Below are positions 60,936 through 62,686 of a stretch of 64,000 nucleotides of DNA, piece by piece. Under the pieces are notes generated by a model, which saw nothing but the letters and a program-made list of their open reading frames with translations, ran no database searches and had not been told where the DNA came from. The stretch's first letter is position 1; each line of letters starts with the position of its first letter. Position numbers and translations under genes: made by a program. The stretch covers positions 372,001 to 436,000 of the forward strand of contig NZ_CP115859.1 in the NCBI RefSeq assembly GCF_027920545.1, read 5' to 3'. This stretch comes from Chryseobacterium camelliae (GTDB taxonomy: Bacteria > Bacteroidota > Bacteroidia > Flavobacteriales > Weeksellaceae).

Positions 60936-61403
60936 TTATTTTTCGATAATTGTCTTCAGATCAGCCGGAGAATAATATTTATTTTTCAGGACTTTATGAT
61001 CTGCCTGTCTGTAAACATTGAATTTCTCACCTGATTTTTCATAAAATGATTCTACGTCTTTTGCTTTGTAAAATTCTACGGTTTCCTGTGCCTGCTCTTC
61101 ATTATCGCAAGCTTTCGACATATTGGAACGCTGAACTTCGTTGAAGAGTTCTACAAATTTGCTGCCAAGTCCGAACTCCAGTACAGCACCACTCAAAACA
61201 TACTGCAAATCACATAATGCATCAGCAATTTCTACAATATTATTATCCGCGATTGCTTGTTTTAATTCGTTCAGTTCTTCCTGTAAAAGCTCAACTCTAA
61301 GATTGCATCTTTCCGGTGAAGGAATTTGTGGAGTATCTAAAATAGGGGCTTTGAAAGTGGTGTGGAATTCTGCTACTTGGTTCAGACTATCAATTTTATC
61401 CAT
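60936..61403 (-). CDS. MazG-like nucleoside triphosphate pyrophosphohydrolase
   Basis: 155 residues, all-alpha NTP-PPase. VELLQEELNELKQAIADNNI and VEIADALCDLQYVLSGAVLE give the EExxE(n)ExxD metal-binding motif (about residues 38-80). Likely hydrolyses non-canonical or excess nucleoside triphosphates, or a related pyrophosphate substrate. First gene of the operon; -7 element TATATTTG on the minus strand at 61423-61430. Confidence 0.85.
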   Translation of the reverse strand: MDKIDSLNQVAEFHTTFKAPILDTPQIPSPERCNLRVELLQEELNELKQAIADNNIVEIADALCDLQYVLSGAVLEFGLGSKFVELFNEVQRSNMSKACDNEEQAQETVEFYKAKDVESFYEKSGEKFNVYRQADHKVLKNKYYSPADLKTIIEK

Positions 61404-61488: not shown

Positions 61489-61517
61489 AAATCCACAGCT
61501 CAAAAAACTGTGGATTT
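61489..61517 (-). terminator. Terminator after the TNT/CxxC gene pair
   Basis: AAATCCACAG (61489-61498) and CTGTGGATTT (61508-61517), then TTTAA on the minus strand. Confidence 0.8.
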
Positions 61518-61542: not shown

Positions 61543-61965
61543 TCAATATTTTAATTCTTCATACTCCCAAATCCCTGAAACATCCAAAACAGTTAATCCC
61601 GGCTGTTTTTCTCCGTAACCAAAAACCCCAACATATCGTGTTTGACAAGCTTCACAATAGGTTCCGAAATATAAGGTAGGTAAATTATTTACTGTTAACG
61701 CTCCAAAATGCTGCATTCCCGGTGATGTTTTGGTAACAACATTATTATTAATAAGTTCAGTTTTCGATAATACTTTGTCTTCATTATAAATTTGGAAGAT
61801 AGGAAATCCCGATTCATAAGGTGTAATTTCAACTGTATTTACATGGTTGCACTTATTACAGGTAAATTTTACGATTGCCGATGGGCTCATCCCATCATTA
61901 CTAAAGTATTTTTTTGCAACAAGAGCTTTTCTACCTAGGATTATTTTTTTTGATATTGAATGCAT
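61543..61965 (-). CDS. Small two-CxxC protein, possible immunity factor
   Basis: 140 residues, no signal peptide. CxxC pairs at Cys36/Cys39 (CNKCNH) and Cys104/Cys107 (CEACQ) could hold one zinc ion (zinc ribbon). Remaining segments (ALTVNNLPTLYFGTYCEA, YVGVFGYGEKQPGLTVLDVS) are beta-rich. It starts 13 bases after the TNT-like lipoprotein gene and shares its terminator, as an immunity gene would; no known immunity family recognised, and the lack of an export signal argues for cytoplasmic action. Confidence 0.6.
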   Translation of the reverse strand: MHSISKKIILGRKALVAKKYFSNDGMSPSAIVKFTCNKCNHVNTVEITPYESGFPIFQIYNEDKVLSKTELINNNVVTKTSPGMQHFGALTVNNLPTLYFGTYCEACQTRYVGVFGYGEKQPGLTVLDVSGIWEYEELKY

Positions 61966-61978
61966 TCGGGTTTATTTA

Positions 61979-62686
61979 TTATTGTATCACCGTTCCTACC
62001 AGGTTATTGTACTTTCCGCTCGGACTTTTTTTAATGATGATTTTCACATATCCTTCTTGTGCTAATTTATTCCAAGTTTTCTGATATCCTGTTGTAATAT
62101 CGATCGGAATTTTCCACATCGTCTGCTTTCCGCCTCCAACCTGACCAAACCAAGGAATTACATCTGCCGTTTGGGATTTGAAAGGTAATACATTATTTAA
62201 AACATCGATCTCATAATAGAAATCATATGTATTTTCAGGCTGATTTAAGGCTCTTTGCGAAAAAGTATACGTATATCCGTTGATGATCGGGCTTGTAAAG
62301 CTTCCTCCCAAAGTAGGAACGCCGGTTCCGTTATAATTACCAATCGCCCCGCTGTATCTGTCGAATTTCTGTCCGGCCTGTAAAGGTACATCATCAACAA
62401 TATTGTATCCTCCGTTTGCCGGAGGCCATCCTCCGTTTAGTTTACTACCTTTGAAAATAACTTCTAATGATCCCCATTGCCCTTTTCTGTAGAGCTCAAA
62501 GATCTGATCTCTTGATGCCTGGTCTACAGTTCCGCCCGTATCGTAGGTTAAAGCAAATTCGTTGGCGTTTTTGTAGAATACGGTTTTAACAGGTGGTATA
62601 TCCGTTTCCGACTCATTGTCTGAGCTGCACGCCATTGAAAAAGAAGTAATTGCGAAAAAAAATAAATACTTAAATAAATGCTTCAT
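61979..62686 (-). CDS. TNT-domain lipoprotein (putative NAD glycohydrolase)
   Basis: 235 residues. Signal peptide with lipobox (FSMAC, Cys20) and an acidic spacer SSDNESETD, which favours outer membrane or surface display. From about residue 87 the sequence follows the TNT pattern (tuberculosis necrotizing toxin, PF14021): WPPANGG (87-93), KFDRYSG (107-113), GGSFTSP (127-133), RAL (145-147), YYEIDVLNNVLPF, and WFGQVGGGKQ (179-188). Known members cleave NAD. Identification is by motif recall; the terminal WFGQxGGGxQ is the strongest point. No other secretion module is present. Confidence 0.72.
   Translation of the reverse strand: MKHLFKYLFFFAITSFSMACSSDNESETDIPPVKTVFYKNANEFALTYDTGGTVDQASRDQIFELYRKGQWGSLEVIFKGSKLNGGWPPANGGYNIVDDVPLQAGQKFDRYSGAIGNYNGTGVPTLGGSFTSPIINGYTYTFSQRALNQPENTYDFYYEIDVLNNVLPFKSQTADVIPWFGQVGGGKQTMWKIPIDITTGYQKTWNKLAQEGYVKIIIKKSPSGKYNNLVGTVIQ

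Follow-up and report, generated by a model that had tools for sequence, protein, structure and literature searches.

A candidate exported TNT-type NADase and a putative cytosolic immunity partner encoded by a linked gene pair in Chryseobacterium

Here we describe a two-gene unit in the genome of Chryseobacterium camelliae (3.44 Mb, single contig; assembly GCF_027920545.1). The closest named protein matches of this genome are from Chryseobacterium. The window, by which we mean the whole stretch of DNA that was analysed, comprises 64,000 nucleotides (contig NZ_CP115859.1, positions 372,001 to 436,000). The genes and features of interest are as follows, in positions of the window and with the evidence for each in brackets.

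61979..62686, minus strand: TNT-type NADase-like exported lipoprotein of 235 residues, hereafter the enzyme (ORF; PF14021 score above cut-off)
62627..62629, minus strand: Cys20, the predicted lipidated cysteine after the signal peptide (sequence; pattern among homologues)
62045..62383, minus strand: TNT domain, residues 102-214, with R110, F130, R145 and Q188 (stretch matched by Pfam; listed homologues)
61543..61965, minus strand: partner of 140 residues, candidate cytosolic immunity protein (ORF; structural model)
61849..61860, minus strand: first CxxC pair of the partner, residues 36-39 (both cysteines invariant in 101 sequences)
61645..61656, minus strand: second CxxC pair of the partner, residues 104-107 (both cysteines invariant in 101 sequences)
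61558..61644, minus strand: C-terminal hairpin motif of the partner, residues 108-136, with FGYGEKQPG (hhalign; genome scan; strands of the model)
61489..61517, minus strand: terminator-like hairpin after the pair (fold energy; z-score)
63107 onward, minus strand: T9SS-type secreted protein, preceding the enzyme gene (GEVED and sorting domains)
60936-61403, minus strand: PRA-PH family gene, beyond the hairpin (PF01503), which we take to be MazG-like

The gene order, motifs and ORF sizes given by an initial annotation of this DNA were borne out by an ORF and sequence check, including a 140-residue protein with two CxxC pairs that starts 13 bases after the stop codon of the enzyme gene. A terminator shared by both genes had also been proposed, and a hairpin (61517-61489) does lie 3' of the partner stop codon, with a fold energy of -17.3 kcal/mol for a 71-nucleotide stretch and a z-score of -3.94 against shuffles; a simple terminator scan did not list it.

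The proposed membership of the lipoprotein in the TNT family agrees with its score of 30.1 bits against PF14021 (E 6.5e-7; Pfam gathering cut-off 27), and the motifs cited in its favour are present as PWFGQVGGGKQ at residues 178-188 and DRY at residues 109-111. The enzyme is the sole PF14021 match of its genome, and none of 14 control genomes has a match. Within the genus, PF14021 matches at E<=0.001 in 115 of 171 genomes and exceeds the cut-off in 68 of the 171; orthologues of the enzyme straddle that cut-off. TNT domains at two other loci of the genus (L062 and L067) score 86.2 and 85.2 bits against PF14021 and share 34% and 32% identity with the enzyme (E 5e-21 and 2e-19 within their loci), which appears to be a stronger link to the TNT family than the enzyme's own Pfam score. 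Relatives of the enzyme carry the NCBI name 'glycohydrolase toxin TNT-related protein'.

A total of 153 homologues of the enzyme were found, and residue and signal counts refer to the 120 listed. All 120 retain R110, F130, R145 and Q188. Alignment with AfNADase chains places DRY against DRF (R129), FTSP against FLAP (F137) and the glutamine of the PWF motif against Q194, thereby pairing R110, F130 and Q188 of the enzyme with R129, F137 and Q194, and leaves a twelve-residue stretch of the loop between R110 and F130 with no counterpart in AfNADase. R145 aligns with the arginine of SQRAL in chain 8r15 and, judged by eye only, would correspond to R148 of AfNADase. In AfNADase, mutation of R129, F137 or Q194 abolishes activity, and R148 touches the nicotinamide (PMC7955114).

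The 235 residues of the enzyme comprise a signal peptide and then the domain, in keeping with the earlier description of a free-standing lipoprotein that lacks long secretion or repeat regions. The combination by which polymorphic toxins are recognised (a long N-terminal delivery or repeat region and an exchangeable C-terminal tip) is absent from it. The hydrophobic signal sequence closes in SMAC, and the mature chain starts C-SSDNE. Among the listed homologues, 104 of 120 have a cysteine following Ala, Gly, Ser or Thr within residues 13-40, by a loose pattern, and 101 of these 104 have at least two acidic residues at positions +2 to +7; a stricter lipoprotein pattern is matched by 6 homologues. 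Published signals include SDDFE of SusD-like lipoproteins in Flavobacterium johnsoniae and QKDDE of surface lipoproteins in Capnocytophaga (PMC5080379). Compared with these types, SSDNE at positions +2 to +6 is acidic like SDDFE, though not identical to it. Export of the enzyme as a lipoprotein is likely on these grounds, and surface exposure is plausible. Judged by the signal sequence and the published export signals, the lipoprotein may be displayed at the outer membrane.

Searches of Pfam and NCBIfam gave no family match for the partner, and no signal peptide was recognised in it by eye. The four cysteines of its two CxxC pairs do not vary across 101 aligned sequences, a pattern that points to a single zinc site, and the partner probably binds zinc. 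In the AlphaFold model (pLDDT 94.1), the conserved end of the protein forms a long C-terminal hairpin with strands at residues 110-121 and 124-137 and GEKQPG at the turn. Comparison of the partner with the PDB gave no clear match. The sequence matches that the partner profile has in the PDB include no IFS chain, and IFT (PDB 4QLP) is not among the listed PDB matches, by sequence or by fold, of the partner or its relatives.

Linkage of the two genes, on which the initial annotation had made its reading depend, was surveyed in 173 genomes of the genus (match threshold E<=0.001). The enzyme is found in 121 genomes (122 copies) and the partner in the same 121; neither gene is matched in 52, and none of the 173 genomes has an enzyme without a partner or a partner without an enzyme at this threshold. 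The partner adjoins the enzyme downstream on the same strand in all 122 copies, most commonly (75/122) at a distance of 16 bases from the match end, counting the stop codon. Linkage of enzyme and partner is far beyond chance. The two outcomes that the initial annotation had named as refuting its reading, no significant PF14021 match and no conserved linkage, did not occur. Two pairs occur in one genome, G103. In another, 75% complete (G128:C1:46328-46742), the partner match falls into three pieces beside an open enzyme frame, which reflects either a sequencing error or a real break.

The surroundings of the pair are largely stable. A MazG-like gene lies within 4 kb of the pair in 92 of the 120 copies for which such a gene was listed, and farther off or on a different contig in the remaining 28. 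Among the 52 pair-less genomes, 31 have a listed MazG-like gene, and 14 of these loci were read: in every one the T9SS-type gene is succeeded directly by the MazG-like, thioredoxin-like and DUF4230 genes, with no remnant of either gene of the pair, suggesting that the pair is gained or lost as one unit. In wider samples, which include members of the genus, the enzyme profile matches in 16 of 158 genomes of the family and 8 of 345 genomes of the phylum, and the partner profile in 13 and 4, respectively. Outside the genus, the enzyme profile matches in 5 genomes of the family sample and 5 of the phylum sample, and the partner profile in 2 and 1, respectively. One of these genomes, from another order (G322; L102/L107), holds the full pair, which suggests that it also moves sideways as a pair. 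One enzyme homologue (P0114) is annotated as plasmid-borne in Fulvitalea axinellae, in line with sideways transfer. The idea that the pair travels with NAD-salvage genes was rejected, as none was recognised by eye when the ORF starts near 12 relocated copies were read.

Besides the pair, a scan of the genus found 11 weaker TNT matches, which lie inside ORFs of 528 to 1780 residues; counts of TNT loci omit L101 (a 33-residue fragment match in G188), and L001 is a duplicate of L002. Downstream of the TNT domain, 8 of these 11 loci have a small gene whose protein ends like the last ~29 residues of the partner, for example LFSYGEFQPGRYMLFLEGIY in L062 and LFTYGEKQPSRWILILENVW in L064; we refer to such genes as motif genes. 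In L064 the motif gene starts 5 bases past the toxin, and at the other seven loci one or two genes lie between. A PF14021 scan of 171 genomes yielded 7 strong toxin domains (>90 bits), all within the 8 loci that have a motif gene. Outside the genus a motif gene is present at 2 of 9 TNT loci, lying 4 bases after the TNT ORF in L096 and occurring as two tandem copies in L099.

An alignment of seven motif-gene proteins, termed A3 and including no partner, was compared with the partner family. Using hhalign, 29 columns aligned with a probability of 96.1 and an E-value of 3.2e-9 (96.6 and 5.8e-10 with deeper alignments), and the remainder of both proteins gave no significant alignment. In a six-frame scan of 171 genomes the A3 profile matched in 88, with 47 strong matches (E 1.5e-30 or better) and 78 weaker ones, 71 of which are partner genes. 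Across the window and control loci (383,962 six-frame residues) the motif pattern occurs a single time, in the partner. The model of an A3 member (pLDDT 93.1) combines short strands with two helices and ends in three strands, the last hairpin of which is the motif. Strands and helices follow the same order as in the partner model, and the loops that bear the CxxC pairs in the partner are shorter in the A3 member. In a comparison of structural-element strings 8 of 300 shuffles score equally high, and the likeness of the two models is only suggestive. No motif protein scored over cut-off in Pfam or NCBIfam.

Several of the loci with motif genes have further features of toxin systems. In L062, phage-type sheath, tube and AAA genes beside the toxin form an eCIS-type system, and the toxin itself carries a further Ntox28 tip in addition to TNT. 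Seven loci (L062-L063 and L065-L069, in G066, G103, G078, G148, G138, G023 and G021) encode large toxins with TNT at about residues 950-1050 and then a variable end, followed by the motif gene after one or two other genes; a PG_binding domain is present in the toxins of L062 and L067, and a Tsi6-type gene lies ahead of the motif gene in L063. From their layout these look like two-warhead toxins with two antidotes. For several of the proteins retrieved by A3, the Tsi6 immunity domain PF18660 is listed on the same chain, and those of the type of P0296, P0301, P0309 and P0332 (these and others have ~204-227 residues) are possible two-in-one immunity proteins; a Pfam scan of a similar 227-residue protein in L130 gave no match at E<=0.01. 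L084 (genome G230) contains an isolated motif gene, at about 1501-1722, that encodes a CxxC, lies ~14 kb from a TNT toxin and adjoins two similar small genes; this may be an orphan immunity gene as well as an intermediate of the two forms.

The association of motif and TNT domain has limits in both directions. In the stretches fetched, a motif gene is absent at 10 of the 20 other TNT loci (3 of 11 in the genus and 7 of 9 outside it, where flanks were only 1.5 kb). Four of these ten (L070, L071, L072 and L098) also lack the PWF..G.G.Q signature and six (L097, L100 and L103-L106) carry it; in L063 and L099 a motif gene is present and the signature as written is absent. L105 encodes a free-standing secreted TNT protein of 207 residues (Pfam score 74 bits) with no motif gene in the fetched stretch, and thus offers a natural comparison, an exported TNT enzyme that has no such partner there. 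Such loci suggest that other TNT enzymes manage with different partners or with none.

In the other direction, 20 of the 47 strong A3 loci were read with wide flanks, namely the 8 TNT loci and 12 further loci, and none of the 12 has a clear TNT domain beside the motif gene. At 7 of these 12 (L167-L173, from G139, G091, G054, G124, G043, G146 and G108) the motif gene closes a series of small genes that follow a toxin with the N-terminus MSRHxKTFAPR and a different end, with weak TNT fragment matches (E 4e-4 to 0.007) in L171-L173. A different large toxin lies upstream of the motif gene in L174, and no such toxin was found within the wide flanks of L175-L178. A reading of 16 motif-gene loci with 1.5-kb flanks gave one weak TNT match. 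Because toxins of the same type have another end at the seven loci L167-L173, the motif copies there may be orphans or may guard against something else; the loci look like immunity-gene arrays in which a gene outlives its warhead, and this layout fits an immunity role of the motif genes. With 7 strong TNT domains against 47 strong A3 matches, and 12 of 12 further loci lacking a clear TNT domain, the view that the motif family is simply the TNT antidote family is weakened, and the motif cannot be claimed as a mark of TNT inhibitors only.

Taken together, we consider that the two genes encode an enzyme-inhibitor pair, an exported TNT-type NAD(P)+ glycohydrolase and a cytosolic immunity protein that would act in the manner of SPN and IFS, and give this reading, drawn from sequence and analogy, a probability of about 0.72. 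The enzyme would exit via Sec as a lipoprotein and probably end on the outer membrane, possibly facing outward, while the small partner would remain in the cytoplasm, probably with zinc bound. There its C-terminal hairpin, with GEKQPG at the turn, could be pushed into or over the active site and block it, both in enzyme that has folded before export and in any that re-enters; a plug is proposed by analogy with NADase effectors, whose immunity proteins insert a loop at the active site (PMC10539506). Of the toxin-immunity pair put forward by the initial annotation, the linkage in 122 of 122 copies and the motif held in common with genes downstream of TNT toxins speak in favour, and the presence of the motif family away from TNT domains speaks against. 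Also counted against this reading are that the locus is not polymorphic, as competition toxins usually are, and that the shared stretch is short, at 29 columns.

Two alternatives differ from the enzyme-inhibitor reading in purpose and not in mechanism. According to the first, which we regard as a tentative possibility, and in line with the extracellular NAD use that the initial annotation gave as its other option, the enzyme is a nutritional ecto-NADase in a housekeeping role that splits NAD released by other cells and makes the products available for salvage, and the partner is a safety inhibitor that only shields the maker's own NAD before export. A conserved enzyme with no delivery domain, at a mostly single-copy locus that in 92 of 120 copies keeps close to a MazG-like gene, would suit such a role, as would the surface TNT NADases of fungi, in two of which no immunity-factor homologue was found (PMC7955114). 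It fits less well with the clean absence of the pair from all but 121 of 173 genomes, with the kinship of the partner to genes beside injected and polymorphic toxins, and with the relocated copies, around which no NAD-salvage gene was recognised by eye.

According to the second, which lies on the unlikely side, the lipoprotein would serve as a weapon against other bacteria, carried on the cell surface or on outer-membrane vesicles and passed on by contact or by vesicles, and the partner would protect siblings. The partner is of the cytosolic immunity type, the pair is duplicated in one genome and present in another order, and the motif family is found beside eCIS-type and polymorphic toxins and in arrays of immunity-type genes. 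Against this, none of the 173 genus genomes has a partner gene by itself, there are no variable tips, and we know of no route by which such a lipoprotein would enter the cytoplasm of a target. Use of the enzyme as a weapon against competitors or as a scavenger of free NAD would be about equally likely; kinship to immunity-type genes leans towards an origin as a weapon, and the stable locus towards a settled function.

The partner could instead act on the lipoprotein as a chaperone for export or regulate it in a zinc-dependent way, which we consider quite unlikely. Its two invariant CxxC pairs and the strict two-gene unit with an exported protein are compatible with this role, and the motif family at loci lacking a TNT domain implies that the motif need not mean TNT binding. 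The motif nevertheless recurs beside TNT toxins with quite different exit routes, in small-gene arrays behind polymorphic toxins and in proteins listed with a Tsi6 domain, which argues against a chaperone or regulator. A reading of the TNT domain as a remnant that has lost catalysis and serves in binding, at which the modest Pfam score, the orthologues often just under the cut-off and the lengthened R110-F130 loop might hint, is highly improbable given that all four active-site-type residues are retained in every listed homologue.

A broader scenario that builds on the enzyme-inhibitor reading is doubtful as a whole. A single, so far undescribed inhibitor fold with a C-terminal F-x-[YF]-G-E-x-Q-P hairpin might commonly serve Flavobacteriia as an antidote to TNT NADases, irrespective of exit route (surface lipoprotein, contractile-injection cargo or polymorphic toxin), and often stay on in immunity arrays once another warhead has replaced TNT. 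The lipoprotein form would then derive from a weapon and now be a surface NADase found across the genus, acting on neighbouring cells through contact or vesicles, with a zinc-stapled form of the antidote keeping it harmless within the maker.

The initial annotation considered neither protein to have been described. This stands for the partner, which has no family, and fails for the enzyme, which falls in a known family and has relatives that databases already call TNT-related; neither the partner nor the motif proteins have a Pfam or NCBIfam family. The partner appears, from its sequence, to belong to a so far unnamed antidote family, and the motif provides a handle on an immunity-like gene family that neither database matches. 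No report of the enzyme-partner pair was found in open-licence papers, and the first 300,000 characters of Zhang et al. 2012 (PMC3482391) do not contain DUF4237, TNT, NADase or Chryseobacterium.

Bacterial TNT-type NADases known so far are mostly parts of injected or channel-forming toxins, and the immunity proteins described for them have no relation to one another (PMC10539506). The stand-alone exported TNT enzyme described here has a dedicated partner in each of the 121 genomes that carry it, which opens to experiment the question of whether export is enough to shield a cell from the NADase it makes. A stand-alone exported layout is reported from fungi in which no immunity-factor homologue was found (PMC7955114); why an inhibitor should be needed here despite export, when fungal surface enzymes are reported to do without one, is an interesting question.

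Among known systems, the eCIS-associated toxins (PMC8213781) resemble L062, where a TNT toxin lies beside tail-sheath, tube and AAA genes with a motif gene downstream; they are large and multidomain, and the word TNT is absent from the available text of that paper. The T6SS effectors Tse6, Tne2 and Serratia Rhs1 (with RhsI1) are NAD(P)+ glycohydrolases with immunity proteins; the immunity proteins of Tse6, Tne2 and Rhs1 put a loop in the active site and are called unrelated (PMC10539506). These effectors are injected by the T6SS. The partner here has its own motif, and the Tsi6 domain found in some chains of the motif family is a domain separate from the motif. AfNADase and other fungal surface NADases are free-standing, secreted, surface TNT enzymes, as is predicted for the bacterial enzyme, with the same active-site residues, and some species have a calcium site; in contrast to the bacterial enzyme with its dedicated partner, N. 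crassa and A. fumigatus are reported to have no immunity-factor homologue (PMC7955114).

The TNT domain of CpnT belongs to the same family as the enzyme and has its own immunity factor, IFT (PDB 4QLP; named in PMC7955114). Its Arg757, Tyr765 and Gln822 are the counterparts of AfNADase Arg129, Phe137 and Gln194, and it is cleaved from a channel protein, whereas the enzyme is a free-standing lipoprotein (PMC10539506). In Streptococcus pyogenes, SPN is a secreted NAD glycohydrolase whose maker is guarded by the intracellular inhibitor IFS, which protects it from unsecreted SPN and must let go during export (PMC3795565). SPN is grouped in that paper with the ADP-ribosyltransferases and not as a TNT protein, and the enzyme described here also differs in being a predicted lipoprotein. 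By analogy, SPN-IFS would nonetheless be the closest working analogue, and we infer the same mode of action for the Chryseobacterium pair.
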